From: Chrysophaeum taylorii
Lineage: Eukaryota; Sar; Pelagophyceae; Pelagomonadales; Pelagomonadaceae
Assembly (NCBI GenBank): GCA_029834535.1
Contig: JAQMWT010000358.1
Span: 1 to 64,000, forward strand
Length of the DNA: 64,000 nt
Reading direction: 5' to 3'
Below, in pieces: positions 21,499 through 30,741 of the stretch (positions within the stretch are counted from its first letter, which is position 1; each line of letters starts with the position of its first letter). The notes under the pieces were generated by a model. It saw nothing but the letters and a program-made list of their open reading frames with translations. It searched no databases and was not told the origin of the DNA. The translations under genes were made by a program, and so were the position numbers.

Positions 21499-23424
21499 AT
21501 GCCCCCGGTGTATCGAAGAAGGTCCGTCGTCGTCATCACGTTGCTCGGGTTGGGCGCGCGCGCGCTGCGAGTTCCGCGGTTGATCGCGCGAGGGTGGGCC
21601 GTCGGAGGAGGGAGCGTCGTAATGGGTGCGTCGACGACGACGACCGCCGCGGCGGCGGAAAAAAGCGATGTCGCACTGGATCGGTTCGCGCAGCGCGCTG
21701 ACCTTTCGTGGCTGAGTCAGCTGAGCGAGGACCCCGAGGCGAAGGCTTACGAGCCGAACCGGTCGTCGCGCGAGGTGAAGAGTGGTCACTACGTGCGGGT
21801 GGCGCCGATGGCGTTGCCCGGGCCCGAACTGCTCTTGTACTCGGAAGAACTCGCCGGCGAGCTGGAGTTGTCTCAGGCCGTCGAAAACCCCCGGTTCGCC
21901 CGGTTCTTGTCGGGGGACGTCGAGGCGTTGGACCTCGGGGGGACCTGGGCGACGCCCTACGCGTTGAGCATCATGGGGGAGGAGATGGTGCACAACTGTC
22001 CTTTCGGGACGGGTAACGGCTACGGCGACGGGCGGGCCGTGTCGATCGGCGAGGTCGTCGTGGAGGATCGTAGGTACGAGCTGCAGCTCAAGGGGGGCGG
22101 GCAGACGCCGTTTTGCCGGGGGGCCGACGGGCGCGCCGTGCTCCGGTCGTCGCTCCGCGAGTTCCTCGCGTCGGAAGCGATGCACTTCTTGCGCGTTCCA
22201 ACGACTCGAGCGCTCAGCCTCGTCGCGAGCCGCGAGCTCCGGATCCGGCGGCCGTGGTACTCCAACAGGGCTGCCCCTATCTCGGAGTCAGACCCGCGGC
22301 TCGCGCACCTCCCCGTCGAGCTGCGGCGGCAGCTGATTCGCCAGAGCGCGTCGAATCCCGACGTCGCCGTCGAGGAACCGGCGGCGATTACGTGTCGCGT
22401 GGCGCCGTCGTTTCTTCGCGTCGGTCACCTCGACCTCTTCGCGCGCCGGGCCGCGAGGGACCCGGCTCGCCGACCCCAACACCGCGCGATGGTGGCCCAC
22501 GCGATCTTCCGCGAGTACAGAGACCTCTGGACGCCGACGCTCGTCGACGACGACGAGGCGCTCCGCGCGGCTGCTTTAGAGATGACGCGCCGCGCGAGAG
22601 CTAATCTCGCGGCCCTCGCTGCCGACTGGCTCCGCGTCGGCTTCTGTCAGGGTAACTTCAACGCCGACAACTGCCTCGTCGCCGGCCGCACGATGGACTA
22701 CGGTCCCTTTGGTTTTATGGACCGCTACGACCCGACCTTCGCGAAGTGGGTCGGCTCGGGAGCCCACTTTGCCTTCGCCGCCCAGCCGCGCGCTGCCCAG
22801 GTCAACTTCGGGACCCTCGTCAAGGCGCTTCTCCCGCTTTTTGTTGATGATAACAAGGGTCGAGACGACCTCCGCGCCCTCGTCGCGGGCTCGGACCGGG
22901 TCTTCCGGGAAGCGGTCGATTCGTGCTACGCGGCGAAACTCGGCTTCGATTTGCCCTCGGAGGCTACGACCCGCATCTGGCACCGCTTCGAGGAAATCCT
23001 CAGGGACGCCGCCCTCGACTATACGATCGCCTTCCGCGAGTTGTCGGCCTTCGACGCGACGCGAATCCTCGACTTGGCCCGCTACCGCGACGACGAAAAC
23101 GACGACGAGAAGGAATCACGCTTGGATACTCTCGCCGCGTGGATCAAAGACTGGCGCGCAGCCCTCGCCGATGCCGGCGTCGACGAGGACCGAGCCGTCG
23201 CCACCATGAATTCCAACAACCCCAAGTACGTCCTCCGCGAGTGGATGCTCGTCCGAGCCTACGAGGCCGCCTACCGGGGGGACGCGTCCGTCGCCCGCGA
23301 CCTCCACCGCCTCATTAAACGCCCCTACGACGACCAGCCCGAGTTCGACGAAGCCTACTATCGCCGCGCCGACAATGCCGACCTCTCCAGACCGGGGACC
23401 GCCTTCATGACCTGATCATCGTAA
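21499..23424 (+). CDS. SELENOO: Selenoprotein O (SelO/YdiU protein AMPylase) with in-frame UGA near the C-terminus
   Basis: SelO is a pseudokinase-fold enzyme that transfers AMP to Ser/Thr/Tyr of proteins, mainly in mitochondria. Visible family blocks are LKGGGQTPFCRGADGRAVLR (~198), SLREFLASEAMHFLRVPTTR, GNFNADNCLVAG (~386) and MDYGPFGFMDRYDP (~399). The C-terminal tail NNPKYVLREWMLVRAYEAAY also matches the family. The frame reaches TGA at 23413-23415, followed by TCA TCG TAA, giving a predicted ending Met-Thr-Sec-Ser-Ser-stop. Known SELENOO proteins end Sec-Ser-Ser, so I read TGA as selenocysteine. The usual Cys three residues before Sec is Phe here. The N-terminus (PVYRRRSVVVITLLGLGARAL plus a Ser/Thr/Ala-rich stretch) looks like an organelle-targeting peptide. 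The start is the ATG at 21499. I found no convincing SECIS by eye in 23425-23854. Confidence 0.88.
23413..23415 (+). other. Predicted UGA selenocysteine codon of SELENOO
   Basis: TGA followed by TCA TCG TAA reproduces the Sec-Ser-Ser ending seen in animal SELENOO. A plain stop here would give a protein ending AFMT, three residues short of the family end. Confidence 0.78.
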
Positions 23425-23579
23425 CCGCGCGCGCGATCGCGCGCGCGACTTCCCCTCTTGGCTGCTTCTGCTGCTGGCCGAGTGACACCGTGATTTTTTT
23501 TTTGCGGAAAATGAACCTCGCCACTCATGACGCGCCGCGACGCGACCTTTGTGGATCGTCTCGGCTGCCGACACACCTT

Positions 23580-23580
<1 letters not shown>

Positions 23581-23626
<46 letters not shown>
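23581..23626. repeat. (CAG)n microsatellite, about 15 units
   Basis: Uninterrupted CAG/GCA run in the SELENOO 3' region. It lies in the non-coding gap, so it is probably part of a 3' UTR. Confidence 0.95.
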
Positions 23627-23627
<1 letters not shown>

Positions 23628-23818
23628 CTCGCACCTCCTCCTTCTTCTTTTGGTGATTGATAACTCCCATACACTCGTTCCTGACACCACCCTCTATAGG
23701 TAGCGGTGTCTTTCGGAATTTCTCTCCCGCTCGCTTGCGTAGGGGACAATGAAGGGCTTTCCGCCTGCGGAGGTTTTGGATTGGCACATCGGTGGTATTA
23801 TTTGCAACAACATAATTG

Positions 23819-23826
23819 TATAAATA
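23819..23826 (+). promoter_or_regulatory. TATA box of the downstream glycosyltransferase-like gene
   Basis: TATAAATA, starting 36 nt before the ATG at 23855, in an A/T-rich pocket of an otherwise GC-rich region. The leader would be only a few nucleotides long. Confidence 0.5.
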
Positions 23827-23854
23827 GGCATTCTTTCTGCCTCACCCCTATCCT

Positions 23855-24898
23855 ATGACATTGTTGTGGGCGCTGTGCGCGCTGTTGGTGGACGCCAAGC
23901 CACGTTGCCCGCAGGTGGAATGCTCGGAGTACATCTCTCGGGCGCAGTGGACGGGTCGCGTCGCCATCATCGTGAGCGGGTTTATTCGCACGGCGACGGC
24001 CACGGGACGAGACCTGGAGAACATCCGACTGCTCAACAGTCCGGGGACGCGCGTCGAGATTTACTACCACGTGTGGTACAACGCCACGGCGCCATGCGAC
24101 GTGGAGGCTTTGGAGTCGTTATCGCGGTTCGCCGATGGGATCTCGGTCGAGCCGATTGAGTGCGCGTGGTCGTGGGGGAAGACGGGGTTTCAAGGGCACT
24201 GGCACGGCGTTTTCAACGCCTTTCGCGCATTGACAGTCGTGTTCGGTTTGAATCCGCAAAAGTACGGCCTCGTGATGCGCACGGGGACCGACGTGAGTTA
24301 TGGCGGGCCGCTGTTGGATGTGTTCAACTTTTCCAAGTTGTGGGACGCGTACTCGGGCTTCGGCTACGACAACTTCATCCTGGTGGGGTATGCCAACGGC
24401 TTCGACCGCCACGCCATCGGCACGCCCTCTTTGATGCGCGCCTACTCGCTGTACGGCCCGGACGACGGGTTCGGGTGCGATTCGGCGATGGACTCCTTTC
24501 CCTTCCAGCGCATGCGGCGCTACGGCGTCACGACTGTCCCGGGATGGACCGACCTCCCCCACGGGGTCAAGCCCGCCGAAGATCCCCCGCGCTGCGGTGC
24601 CTTTTTTATCTCGAAGCACGGCATTTTCCGCGGGAGCCTTCTCCGGCCGACCGACCGTCTCGGGTGTCGGGAACACGCCAAAGGGCGACGGCTGTTGTGG
24701 TCGCCGCGGCGCCTCGCGATCCGGCCGCCCAAGGGCATCCTCAGAGGGCCCCATGCTTACTGCTCCAAGCACCAGCTTGACCGCTTCAACGCGACCACGG
24801 CGAGCCTCACCTCCATGTCGGGGCCCTGGCACCACAGGAACCCCCCCACTGTACGGACGCGTAATGGTGGAGGCGAGACTCGTCAATATCACAACTAG
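23855..24898 (+). CDS. Secretory glycosyltransferase-like protein (347 aa)
   Basis: Signal peptide MTLLWALCALLVDA. A globular domain opens with GRVAIIVSGFIRTATATGRD, the 'hhhhhG..Rt' start seen in glycosyltransferase-like algal proteins. Next are VEIYYHVWYNATAPCDVEAL, WSWGKTGFQGHWHGVFNAFR and YGLVMRTGTDVSYGG (the 'y..v.R.R.D' block), then FGYDNFILVGYANGF. Fold and pathway position resemble the 17269-18266 gene: ER/Golgi or secreted sugar transfer. The exact reaction is unknown. Cysteines near the ends (PRCPQVECSEY, AYCSKHQLDRF) suggest disulfides. The last ~35 residues (GNRNPPT-type, Gly/Arg-rich) may be beyond the domain or belong to an unseen exon boundary. Confidence 0.68.
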   Translation: MTLLWALCALLVDAKPRCPQVECSEYISRAQWTGRVAIIVSGFIRTATATGRDLENIRLLNSPGTRVEIYYHVWYNATAPCDVEALESLSRFADGISVEPIECAWSWGKTGFQGHWHGVFNAFRALTVVFGLNPQKYGLVMRTGTDVSYGGPLLDVFNFSKLWDAYSGFGYDNFILVGYANGFDRHAIGTPSLMRAYSLYGPDDGFGCDSAMDSFPFQRMRRYGVTTVPGWTDLPHGVKPAEDPPRCGAFFISKHGIFRGSLLRPTDRLGCREHAKGRRLLWSPRRLAIRPPKGILRGPHAYCSKHQLDRFNATTASLTSMSGPWHHRNPPTVRTRNGGGETRQYHN

Positions 24899-25789
24899 AG
24901 ACCGGCACGCAGTGCGGTGTCGTATTTCAAAAACTACTAAACACTGTGCGTGCGTTTCATCTTTAGGCCCAATGTGGACGACGTTCGCGACGTCGCCAGG
25001 CATTATGGCGCGAGCACGTGCTGACGCGGGGAGAATGGTGAGGAAGGAGCCCGATGTCGTGGGCGCTAGTCGAACGATGATAGGGTGTGTCTTTGTTCTT
25101 GTATCAGTAAGAGGAGGGATCAGGCATGGCGCAGACATCGAAGGAACTCTGCACGAGGGGGCCGGGACGAAAAAGTATAGGAGCTGTGTTGGGTGGGAGG
25201 TCATGTGTCGTCAAAGCAGGAGAGGCCTTTCTTTATTCCATCGTGCAACGCATGTCGTCCATGTAGGGGAGGCCTTTGTATGTTTCAGTGTGCAACGGCG
25301 ACGCGTACAAGAGCTCGGGCTTTGTTGATTGTGTGGGCACGAACGAGGCGGACGGGGAATTGGCAGCGGCTCCGCGCAAAGCCTCGGTCTTCTTCTCACC
25401 ACTGCCAAAATTCGATTGAATGGCTCGAGACCGTTTGAATCTTTAGCTTGCTTCGAATAAACTCCTGCGGAGTACACTGTCACGGTTCGCCTCGCCGTTC
25501 GGTCGCCGGGAGCCAAGAAAAGCAGGGAAATCACACGCGGGATTAACGATTCGCCTGACCCTCTTGTTTTCCAGAGGCAAAGAAGAAAGGAAGGAACACA
25601 GTCCAACGATGGCGGCCAAAATCCAATATTCTAAGACCCGACTGCTTCACACGGGAGGTGATGGGGGCAAGGTGAATGCCGACACCGCGCGGCTGCGTCC
25701 TCGGGATGGTGCTTCGACGATGCCGCCATTTTCCTTTTGTTTAGGATCCTCTGCGCTCATCCAATCTTAAGCTCTTTTCTTCGAGGCAC
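24899..25789. other. Intergenic; no supported gene
   Basis: A near-duplicate stretch around 25200-25300 repeats GAGGCCTTT...GTGCAACG. No frame with a recognisable domain on either strand; the long minus-strand frame overlapping 24119-25204 mirrors the gene on the plus strand. Confidence 0.5.
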
Positions 25790-27148
25790 TATTTGAAGAG
25801 CCTATGAGCTCTGACCCGAGAGCCGGGACGTGCCCTAGTCCGTGCGCACGGTTGTGGGCACAAGCGTGTCGTGCACCGTGAAGTGCCCGTGCCGCGACGC
25901 AATTGAGCGTAAGTGCACCAGCACGAGGATGCCGTAGTGCATCGTCGTGCCCGAAGCCATATGCGCGAAGAACTCGATACGCTCGTCGTACGCCGCTTTG
26001 ACAACGAGTTCATCAAATGGACGTGCGCGAAGTACAGGCACTTCCCGCCCCTAGCGCGCGTCGCAGATTTCCTCGGAGGAGAACGAGCGCCCTAACGATT
26101 TTCTTACATAATGCGCGTGACCGTGCCATGCCGTTTTCGGGAGGGCCACGCGGTTCGTGCCTGCATAGCCTTCGAGGCGGCGGCATATATATGAGAGGAC
26201 GGTAGAGGACTTTTTTTTTCTACTTCAGGATGCACAAGGTTGACGGAGGGGGGTCGCTCCTGCTGGCGGTGCCATCACTGCGGCAGTTGAGGTTGAACAA
26301 CATCTCCTTCGTCTAGCAGGAACTGCACAACCGGAAGCTCGTCTCAGATATCAAATATCTGCCGCACCTCAAATAGTTCTTCACTCCGCTCTTCCTGATG
26401 GTGCTGCCATGCGCGACGAAGTAGGCTCCGCCCTCGTTCGCCATCAAGGTTTTTTTTAACCACGCGCGGCCATCGTCGTCGCCGAGCGTCTGTCATCCTG
26501 TTCGCCGCGGTGCCAGCGGGTGCCCAGTACCGGCAGGTAGGATCTGGTCGCCAGGGTTGAAGTCCAGGGCCGACGTCAGGTCCACCAGAACACATCGGAC
26601 TCAGACAAGCCGTAGCCTAAGGCGATCACGCTCTAGTTTTTCCTCGACATCGGTGGCGAATGTGCTACCCTCGAGCTCCGAGTCGAGCTCGGAACGACCG
26701 AGGCCCGCACCGGAGCCAAGCGTGGACGACATTAGAAACAGTTTGGGTGGTCATTACGCTTGCAAAAGTCGTCGAGCCAATTGTTTGCTGGGCTAACGTC
26801 GACCGGAAACAACCGGAAACGAGGACGAAATGCTGGTCGTAGAAGTTGTCGTCGACGGCCAGCCAGCCAGCGGCCCCTCGGCGCGTGGTTAAAAAGAATC
26901 TGAAAGTCGAGTTTGTCGTTGACGTCGAAGTACTGCCCACGCTGAGATACCTCGTCCTCGTTCGTGCCATCAGCTGGCCCAAAATCCACGTCTAGGTCCA
27001 TCGTATAGCCCCACTCAGGCCTCCGAGCGCTCGGACGAACAAGGGAAGTAGAGGCAGTCGACAGCGCCGAACTAATCCTAAACAAATCGCAAGAGGAGGT
27101 CTCGATCAAGGGAGACTTCCTCGGATTCGTGCGGCTTTGGTCGACCAC
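25790..27148 (-). pseudogene. Degenerate unknown gene (minus strand)
   Basis: Protein-like segments follow each other in shifting minus-strand frames. In order they are MDLDVDFGPADGTNEDEVSQ, FDVNDKLDFQILFNHAPRG (~26900), WLAVDDNFYDQHFVLVSGCF (~26850, other frame), FATDVEEKLERDRLRLRLV (~26640), VDLTSALDFNPGDQILPAG (~26560), LMANEGGAYFVAHGSTIRKS (~26420) and FDELVVKAAYDERIEFFAHM (~25980). The amino-acid composition looks like real coding sequence, but stops and frame changes separate the blocks and no GT-AG pairs bridge them convincingly. I do not recognise the family. Confidence 0.4.
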
Positions 27149-27149
27149 A

Positions 27150-27295
27150 CAGTGTGGTGACCCCGACTAGGTCCCGCATACTTATCTCCGTCCGTCAGGC
27201 ACATCCCTCCTACCCCACAAAACCACCCGCATCCTTCATGCCCCCCCCACACACCCCCCTCTTACCAGTCGACCTTTACAGACGCAGTGTGGTGA
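27150..27295. repeat. Copy B of the short dispersed element, flanked by 11-bp direct repeats
   Basis: CAGTGTGGTGA occurs at 27150-27160 and 27285-27295. Between them, 27222-27273 read on the minus strand repeats the GTCGACTGGTAAGAGG / G-T run / CATGAAGGATGCGGGTGGT block of copy A (12476-12527). Different flanking direct repeats at the two copies fit independent insertions. Confidence 0.6.
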
Positions 27296-27412
27296 GCGTG
27301 GCTGCACTGAACCACGACAGATCTACGTGGTAGTACCACCAGTGAATCAAATTGTGCTCAATGGATGCGCAAGTGACGTCAGGTTTTTGGGCTCGACGAC
27401 ACGCGCGACACA

Positions 27413-28570
27413 ATGGTAGCGAGAGTCAATATCATTTGCGGGCCATTGGGGTCCGGGAAGAGCACCGCGATCCTCGCTATGCTGCAGCAGCAGCCCAAGG
27501 ATGAAACCTGGGCCGTGCTCGTAAACGAAATCGGTGCGTCGCACAGCAGCAGCAGCACGGACTGACGCCCCCGACTGCCAGGCGACGTCGGGATCGACGG
27601 GGTGGCGATGGGCCGCGAGGTCTTCGTGCGCGAGCTCGCGGGGGGGTGCATGTGCTGCGCCAACGGCCTGCCATTCCGCGTCGCGCTGACGGAGCTCCTT
27701 CGGCGCAAGCGGCCCGACCGCGTGCTGGTCGAGCCCTCGGGTCTCGGGCGCATCTCGGAGATCTTCAAGTTGTTGCGCGAGGCTCCCCTCGCAACGGCCA
27801 TCAACCTCGCCGCGACGATCTGCGTCGTCCCGGCCGACAAGCACGACGCGCTCTGGGGGGCCTCGGACGTCTACGCCGACCAGCTCTACGGCGCCGACGC
27901 GCTCGTCGTCAACCGCCGGGACACTGCAGTCCCCGACGCTGCCGCTGCCGTCGAGGGATTTTGCCGCGCCTTTTACCCCCCCAAGCACGTCGCGCTGGCG
28001 ACCCGCGGCCGCTTTGACGCGAAACTCCTCGACGCTACCCCTACCGATCGGGTGATCGTCGAACCGACAGGGCTGGTCCCGGCGGGCGGGACGACGCGCG
28101 TCGACTGCGGCGACGGAGCGTGAGACATGTCGCATCGTCCTCGATGAGATGACCACCACAGGACGCGCATCGAGTCGGAACGCGAGGGCAGGCGACTCGT
28201 AGGCTGGCTCCTCCGCGGGTGGCGCTTCGATCGCAAGCGACTCGAGAATGGCCTCGCCGCCTTGGCCACGCCACCGCTCGACCGGGCCAAGGCCGTTTTC
28301 CTCACTCGAGGCCAGGGGGTCTTCCTGGCGCATTGGTGGGGCACTGCCGCGGTCGACCTCTCTACGATCCCGGCTGTTGCCGGCGACAGCCGGGTCCAGC
28401 TCATCTTTGAACAACAAGACGACACACAGTCCGCCACCCACGGCACCTCGGCGGTGCCCTTCTCCTTTCCGTCGTTGCGACTGTCGGCGACTGCGAACCA
28501 GGAGCGTCTCGATTACGTGGAACGATTCCAGTCCTTCCTGCACGATGCCCGTCTATCTAAGGGGAATTAA
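27413..28570 (+). CDS. CobW/ZNG1-family metal-chaperone GTPase, three exons (355 aa)
   Basis: Exons 27413-27533, 27582-28119 and 28162-28570, with introns of 48 and 42 nt. Each junction keeps frame, and the exon sum is divisible by three. Walker A is GPLGSGKST (10-18). Splicing intron 1 joins VNEIG to DVGIDG, the switch region of the family. The CxCC metal motif is GGCMCC (~63-66). EPSGLGRI is the Walker B/switch equivalent, and the guanine-specificity region follows VYADQLYGADALVVNRRD (usually NKxD, here NRRD). After intron 2 the CobW C-terminal domain continues (VGWLLRGWRFDRKRL, AKAVFLTRGQGVFLAHWWG, DSRVQLIFE). Family members load Zn2+ or Co2+ into clients such as methionine aminopeptidase; the client here is not known. 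Confidence 0.88.
27534..27581 (+). other. 48-nt intron 1 of the CobW-family gene
   Basis: GTGCGT donor, TGCCAG acceptor, splits a Gly codon. Contains an in-frame TGA; removal restores NEIG-DVGIDG. Confidence 0.85.
28120..28161 (+). other. 42-nt intron 2 of the CobW-family gene
   Basis: GTGAGA donor, CCACAG acceptor, splits an Ala codon. Contains an in-frame TGA; removal restores the C-terminal domain frame. Confidence 0.85.
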
Positions 28571-28638
28571 GGGAGTTGAGGTGCTCTTGCTGGGACCAGC
28601 GTGGCGTCGCGGCGAAAATTCTTGGGGCAGATGTCCCA

Positions 28639-28686
28639 ATACATACTTGATGACGTGTGCAGATACATACTTGATGACGTGTGCGG
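28639..28686. repeat. Two tandem 24-bp repeats upstream of the elongase
   Basis: Units 28639-28662 and 28663-28686 begin ATACATACTTGATGACGTG and differ by one base. Each carries TGACG (half a CRE), 70-120 nt upstream of the elongase ATG, so they may be a duplicated activator site. Confidence 0.7.
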
Positions 28687-28758
28687 TGAGCTTTCGTCAT
28701 TCGAGGTAGCAATCGGCGGTCGACCGCGACTCCGATTGAGCGTTTGAGTTCAAAGCAT

Positions 28759-29604
28759 ATGGGCCTCGCGGAGACCATAGATGGCTACGGCCAAACCGTC
28801 ATTGACTGGGCACTCGTTGGCTCCAAGGTTACCGACGAGCCTGTCAAGGTGCGCATCTAAATTTCGTGAGTTTCGGAGGTAACAACATCATCGTGTCAGG
28901 ACTATCCGCTCGCCTCGTTGAGCTCTGCGATGTTTGTGGTCGCAGCGTACTTGGGATTCGTGCTCGTTGGGTCGATCGTTGGGCGTCTCACACCGGGTGC
29001 GGGCGTCAAATTCTACGGCCTCAGCTTCACGTACAACATCGTGCAAGTTATGTTGTGCTCATACATGTGCATCGAAACAGCCTTCGTCGCCTCCCGCAAC
29101 AACTACTCGGTTGTGTGCAACGCTTTCAGCCCAACGTCCCCGCCTATGGCCCACGTCTTGTGGTTATTCTACATCTCCAAGGTGCTGGATTTCGCCGACA
29201 CCGTCTTCATTATTCTTGGAAAGAAATGGAAACAGCTCAGCTTTCTCCACGTCTACCACCACTCCACTATATTCTTGATGTACTGGCTTAACCTCCACGT
29301 CAACTACGACGGCGACATCTACCTCACGATCATCCTCAACGGGTTCATCCACACCGTCATGTACACGTACTACTTCGTCTCCATGCACACAAAGGACATC
29401 TGGTGGAAGAAATATCTCACCCTGGCCCAGTTGACGCAGTTCCTCTGCATGAATGCGCAGGCGATCTACATCCTCGTGACGAACTGCTCCCAGTCGCCGC
29501 CGAGGGTGACTGCTATCTACTTCGCGTACATCGTATCGCTCTTCGGCCTTTTCCTTCAATTCTACATCGCCTCCTACACCAAGAACAAGCCCAAGCGCGC
29601 CTAA
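28759..29604 (+). CDS. ELO-family (PUFA-type) fatty acid elongase, two exons (264 aa)
   Basis: Condensing enzyme (3-ketoacyl-CoA synthase) of the ER, adding two carbons to acyl-CoA. Exon 1 (28759-28848) encodes MGLAETIDGYGQTVIDWALV through EPVK. A 51-nt intron (28849-28899) follows, then exon 2 from 28900. Joining gives VTDEPVKDYPLASLSSAMFV, like the N-terminus of algal PUFA elongases. Diagnostic blocks are SKVLDFADTVFIILGKKW, the histidine box FLHVYHHSTIFLMYWLNL (~147-151), NGFIHTVMYTYYFVSMH and LTLAQLTQFLCMNAQAIY. About six or seven hydrophobic spans. The C-terminal KNKPKRA is a dilysine-like ER retention signal. The pattern is of the delta-6/delta-5 C18-C20 PUFA elongase group; chain-length preference cannot be read from sequence alone. 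Confidence 0.92.
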
Positions 29605-30741
29605 ACTAATCTCGTTTTTTTTTTGTTGTCGCGACCTGCTCTTCTCGTCGCGACCCCCTCGCTTGTGCCGCCCCCAAAACCGCCCTCCTTATCTATGCGG
29701 CGACCCAGCACCACCGCCCTCACCGAGGAGTGTGCGGCCCGCGCCCCCCAGGAGGAACAACCAATCTGGTCGCACCATACTACGTACGTGTACGCACTTA
29801 CTGACTTACTTACTTACTATAGCTGCCGCCGCCGTCTCCGCCGCAGAGCGCGACGACCCACGGACAAAGCCCCGCCTCTCGGGTTGCTGACTAATGCGAT
29901 GGTGATAATGGCATTAAGCTGTGGTGGGTGTGGGGTCTGGGTGCGTGCGTGCGTGCGTGCAAGAGATCGCCAAGACGCAGGGACATGAAAATCGTTGTAC
30001 GCAGAGAGGACGGCGGACACGACATCGTCCCGAGCCCTCGACGACCGCTCCGTCGACGACAGAACACGGCATGCCATCGCGTTTAGGCGACAGCCGCCTG
30101 CGCGGCGTCGCCGGCGGACGCGCCGTAGCACGCGTAGGGGAGGGGGGACTGCCTTATTCACGCGGCCTTCGTATCGATGCATCGCGCATCGAAATGGGCG
30201 CGACAACGGCCCAATAGAAAGAAGGCCCGATTGGCGAGGGTCTTGGCACACGCCTGCGAGAGGTTGACCCGGAGGAGCTCGGACCCGTCTCTTGGGCGAG
30301 CGACGATCCGCCCTGTATCGGTCGTTCCGCGAGCGTCGCAGCAAGATCGGCTCGCAGGAGTATCGCGTTGACAGGCCCCGGCTTGGCTGTAGGGGGACCC
30401 AGCTTCGGCGAGGAGAGTCACCTCGTCCTTGTCGGCAAGACACCACCACCCAAGGCGGCGGCGGCGGCAACGGCGGCGGCGAAAGGGCGGCAGGCTGCAA
30501 TACAAGATACTTTTAGATTGTCGCAAAAAAAGAAATCCGTTACAAGTCTGCCCAACGGGGCTTTTGAGTTCTCAGAACCGGCTCTGGGTGAACTTCAACA
30601 ACGGTTAAAATTTGATGTAGTATTCCCTCTTGGTTGTTTGTTGTTTGTCGACTGAGGCTGAATTTGGAGCCATGATGACCATCTCGATGATGGCGATGGA
30701 TTTCGCGTCGAGGCGGCGAAGCATAAAGTTGTGAGAGGATA
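29605..30741. other. Intergenic; simple repeats, no supported gene
   Basis: Contains ACTT repeats (~29797-29818), TGCG repeats (~29940-29960) and a GGCGGC run (~30455-30482). A long minus-strand frame (30500-29817) is low-complexity, rich in Arg, Pro and Ser, and not credible. Confidence 0.5.

Follow-up and report, generated by a model that had tools for sequence, protein, structure and literature searches.

A SelO gene of Chrysophaeum taylorii with a probable selenocysteine codon at the position of an invariant C-terminal cysteine

The window, that is, the whole 64-kb stretch of Chrysophaeum taylorii DNA that was analysed, is a nuclear eukaryotic locus, as the types of the neighbouring reading frames indicate (cyclic-nucleotide phosphodiesterase, MutS homologue, PI3/4-kinase, fatty-acid elongase and exostosin-type glycosyltransferase). 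A tRNA search of the 64 kb found none. On the forward strand, an intronless SelO coding sequence occupies positions 21499..23424. Its open reading frame extends over 638 codons from the ATG at 21499 to a TGA at 23413-23415, and the product has 641 residues if this TGA is read as Sec, and 638 otherwise. The Pfam SelO domain (PF02696) is matched over its whole length (E 6.5e-68, 230 bits versus a cut-off of 22.8), the sequence match in the PDB is YdiU/SelO (E 2e-49), and the G+C content at third codon positions is 0.83. The kinase-like ATP-site Lys (K198, 22090..22092, forward strand), the catalytic-loop Asn of the NxDN motif (N391, 22669..22671, forward strand) and the Asp of the DYGP motif, which is equivalent to DFG (D400, 22696..22698, forward strand), are invariant across the 53 rows of our alignment, the C. 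taylorii protein included. Since all three elements are intact, the gene is not an obvious pseudogene.

The first 45 or so residues (21499..21633, forward strand) form a basic extension without acidic residues, which is absent from the bacterial homologues in the alignment. In the structure model discussed below, residues 1-45 have low pLDDT. As the extension is both basic and missing in bacteria, it suggests organelle import, and it is probably a mitochondrial targeting sequence. A mitochondrial location has been reported for the studied eukaryotic SELO (PMC3281104). Downstream, the next gene-like ORF lies on the same strand as SelO (23855-24898, 347 residues, no Pfam match). Therefore, the SelO 3' UTR is at most about 430 nt long, unless the transcripts overlap. 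The presumed 3' UTR contains an (AGC)n microsatellite at 23581-23626, which gives antisense ORFs with long Leu/Ala/Cys runs; such runs do not count as evidence for genes.

The end of the SelO frame is unusual. Bases 23413-23424 are TGATCATCGTAA, or TGA TCA TCG TAA in frame with the ORF, and an earlier note on this DNA had read the same succession. The TGA (23413..23415, forward strand, residue 639) is the proposed Sec codon, and the remaining three codons (23416..23424, forward strand) would add Ser-Ser before the stop. All 52 other rows of the 53-row alignment have Cys, with no gap, at the place of the TGA, and 50 of the 52 have Ser-Ser in the two following columns. Sec/Cys pairs are classically recognised by such an exact replacement of an invariant Cys by TGA. 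If the TGA stands for Sec, the protein is predicted to end in FMT-U-SS, with Phe636 at position -3. From composition, the probability that Ser-Ser-stop follows a stop codon is about 4e-4, and only 2 of the 1443 TGA triplets on both strands of the window have this continuation, the SelO TGA counted. Coincidence is thus unlikely, as the earlier note had held. However, the low odds are compatible with an ordinary stop, because a nonsense mutation in a Cys-Ser-Ser tail leaves identical bases. An intron that skips the TGA was also considered, but is not supported, as the nearest upstream GT is 70 nt away and the tail aligns without gaps.

The closest relatives that we fetched are bacterial SelO proteins with a CPFGTGNGYGDGR motif, which share 38-47% identity with the C. 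taylorii protein over most of its length. Their hosts are cyanobacteria, gamma-, delta- and epsilon-proteobacterial groups, and others. In a tree that, like the alignment, was built from a comparison set without eukaryotic SelO sequences, C. taylorii SelO joins this subfamily (support 100/100, branch 2.4), far from other SelO, with an own branch of 1.22 changes per site. The scores against the classical YdiU/SelO equivalogs of NCBIfam are below the thresholds (192.7 versus 900 bits for NF040880, 222 versus 850 bits for NF045949). The protein belongs to a SelO subfamily that is separate from the classical equivalog.

With respect to the tail, the subfamily is uniform. The 84 members that match GTGNGYGD exactly all have Cys-Ser-Ser-stop as their end, and position -3 is occupied by His (80 members) or Tyr (4 members), but never by Cys. 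Cys at position -2 is found in a few members (four). The earlier note had stated that the Cys of the CxxU pair is replaced by Phe in C. taylorii. Phe is indeed found at -3, but the wording is misleading, since Cys is absent there throughout the subfamily. The Cys three residues before Sec that defines CxxU-type SELENOO of the animal branch is not present, Phe636 taking its place. If the TGA is a Sec codon, the tail is instead of the Uxx type without CxxU, with which the marine picoeukaryote branch of SELO usually ends (PMC3281104). The CPFGTGNGYGDGR subfamily is probably this 'marine picoeukaryote' branch of the literature.

Several other observations were made in the comparison. The Cys-Ser-Ser tail is not universal in SelO, as several ordinary cyanobacterial SelO proteins (five) end without it. 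In ten SelO sequences, DYGPF/Y is replaced by DYGPC or DFGPC; these proteins end in Cys-Gly-Thr and not in Cys-Ser-Ser, and both features occurred together in all cases seen. A scan of viral contigs found no relative with the single C. taylorii protein as query and one with the alignment, an IMG/VR contig that encodes a SelO of the CPFGTGNGYGDGR subfamily. Microcystis phages contain a partial SelO match, annotated as selO in one record. A sampled search among the SelO proteins of one bacterial phylum found no TGA-Ser-Ser-stop tails.

A SECIS downstream of 23425, for which the earlier note had suggested a prediction, did not emerge. The Rfam SECIS models had no match at E<=10 in 23000-25500, 23425-23900 or 23425-30000. 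Our purpose-made scan of the 430 nt that separate SelO from the next gene returned a single, weak SECIS-like hairpin (23527..23571, forward strand), with an ATGA, an interrupted 10-bp stem, a CC/AC apical loop that lacks AA, and a GA; by inspection, its flanks do not form a helix I. SelO SECIS elements with CC replacing AA have been reported in mammals only (PMC3316567). The candidate is not above background, as 15 of 100 dinucleotide shuffles were as good in a scan that is unchecked on known algal SECIS, and our own SECIS scans matched about as often elsewhere in the window or in shuffled sequence. All searches were run on genomic DNA, in which 3' UTR introns are invisible. Predicted algal selenoproteins without a detected SECIS are on record (PMC6627142).

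A perfect 9-bp G+C hairpin (23426..23447, forward strand) with a (CG)n stem and a GATC loop begins 10 nt past the TGA, and a single nucleotide separates it from the TAA. Its folding energy of -20.6 kcal/mol (z -3.6) was not reached by any of 200 shuffles. Counting this hairpin, the 64-kb window has four perfect stems of at least 9 bp. Sec redefinition elements are stem-loops located just downstream of UGA-Sec codons (PMC8704476), and the hairpin, which is placed like such an element, may be a similar stimulator of recoding. The placement is suggestive only, because the hairpin was noticed after the fact and one of the other gene ends examined likewise has a strong hairpin close to its stop. 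Going further, one may speculate that this hairpin and a SECIS that is degenerate or escaped recognition jointly help to insert Sec at the UGA. In this lineage, a large share of the recoding signal would then lie in the UGA-proximal structure, but we consider this scenario doubtful.

Taken as a whole, the data make it likely, with a probability of roughly 0.8, that UGA codon 639 is decoded as Sec, and that the protein carries a Sec-Ser-Ser tail where the bacterial proteins have Cys-Ser-Ser. Sec is the best reading because the TGA aligns without gaps with the invariant Cys of the nearest SelO subfamily. The earlier note had called the gene a likely selenoprotein, which is supported in part: homology speaks well for a Sec codon, but no SECIS was recognised within 6.5 kb downstream. 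Sec-containing SelO proteins with SECIS elements have been described in O. tauri and in a red alga (PMC2375036). The C. taylorii protein is probably a further representative of a selenoprotein type already known in algae.

The main competitor of Sec decoding is an ordinary stop. According to this explanation, a TGC or TGT Cys codon has mutated to TGA, the last three residues have been lost, and TCA TCG TAA is what is left, untranslated, of the old Cys-Ser-Ser tail. A single base change in the ancestral codon suffices to produce the exact sequence, and the failure of both the Rfam models (to 6.5 kb downstream) and the purpose-made scan to find a SECIS would be explained. SelO proteins without the tail exist, as noted above for cyanobacteria, so that termination at the TGA could be tolerated, and AMPylation reportedly does not need the tail residue (PMC13391479). 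However, the protein is highly diverged (1.22 changes per site on its own branch) and yet both Ser codons and the stop have been preserved, which would require a recent mutation. Moreover, Sec has been reported at this very site in the picoeukaryote branch (PMC3281104). On balance, an ordinary stop appears unlikely, but deserves to be taken seriously.

The TGA could also be a one-base sequencing or assembly error for TGC or TGT in an ordinary Cys-SelO. One wrong base would be enough, and the analysis covered a single sequence of the locus, but the remainder of the 1.9-kb frame is clean and Sec is reported in eukaryotic relatives, so that an error seems quite improbable. Programmed read-through by a near-cognate tRNA, stimulated by the strong perfect hairpin 10 nt downstream of the TGA, is less plausible still, since the extension past the TGA amounts to two Ser only, and the position of the TGA exactly in the Cys column is explained by Sec, but not by read-through. 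Genome-wide reassignment of UGA to an amino acid, for which we found no supporting point, was rejected as very improbable. We inspected 17 other gene-like frames of the window, some of which may end inside introns, and 10 of them close with TGA as an ordinary stop, among them the frames for the PDE, the kinase, MutS and the MFS protein.

If Sec is present in the tail, as we consider likely, the question arises what it may do there. An AlphaFold2 model of C. taylorii SelO was built with 47 homologues, plasmid sequences being left out of the alignment (mean pLDDT 79.5). In a Foldseek search of the PDB, the nine best matches of the model were all SelO/YdiU (E down to 3e-26), with YdiU-NAD complexes first. 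In the tail, residues 630-638 have pLDDT below 50, and an attempt to place Sec beside a partner Cys in the model was abandoned for this reason. As the model cannot place the tail, the conserved C167, C206, C383 and C392 are possible other partners of Sec. Because the Cys at -3 is absent in all members seen, the tail of the subfamily cannot serve in general to form a C/U pair.

SelO transfers AMP from ATP onto proteins (PMC12409994). The Sec/Cys-Ser-Ser tail of SelO has been reported to split NAD+, whereas the AMP transfer proceeds without need of the tail (PMC13391479). By analogy, C. taylorii SelO would be a nucleotidyl enzyme with a kinase fold that transfers AMP, and its flexible tail would bring the lone Sec to the nucleotide. 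Sec would then have a catalytic part, like the one reported for the human SelO tail when NAD+ is hydrolysed, and would not be one half of a CxxU pair. A lone catalytic Sec thus seems to be the better inference than a disulfide switch or a CxxU redox pair. The chalcogen residue of the subfamily does its work with no partner Cys of the CxxU type, which agrees with the NADase role recently reported for the residue in the tail, and the CPFGTGNGYGDGR SelO proteins are therefore a natural test case for a catalytic (NADase) role of the tail. As the earlier note had anticipated, gene callers that read the TGA as a stop drop the last three residues. Standard gene calling would hence shorten a probable selenoprotein by its functional tail.

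Among known systems, E. coli YdiU/SelO (PDB 6iii, 9jym, 9l29) provides the best solved structure (TM-score 0.83 by target length), and its catalytic residues are kept in C. taylorii SelO. However, the identity is only about 29%, and YdiU is shorter and belongs to a Cys-type family. A UGA codon in a SelO homologue has also been reported for the predicted bacterial Sec-SelO of Desulfosediminicola (PMC12013277), but there with a bacterial SECIS, and such Sec-SelO proteins were not found among the SelO loci that we sampled. The marine picoeukaryote SELENOO proteins (Ostreococcus, Micromonas, Aureococcus, Ectocarpus and diatoms; PMC3281104) have the SelO kinase-like domain and usually a Uxx tail, in which a single Sec is the third-last residue. 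The C. taylorii protein is placed with them by tail type and literature, not by the tree, and differs in that its SECIS was not found. The bacterial CPFGTGNGYGDGR SelO proteins, for example those of Leptolyngbya and Synechococcus RCC307, have the subfamily motifs and the Ser-Ser-stop in common with C. taylorii SelO, but have Cys where the TGA stands and lack the N-terminal extension. Finally, human SELENOO, with its CVTUSS tail (PMC3281104), likewise ends in Sec-Ser-Ser. It differs in having the Cys of the CxxU pair, where C. taylorii SelO has Phe.
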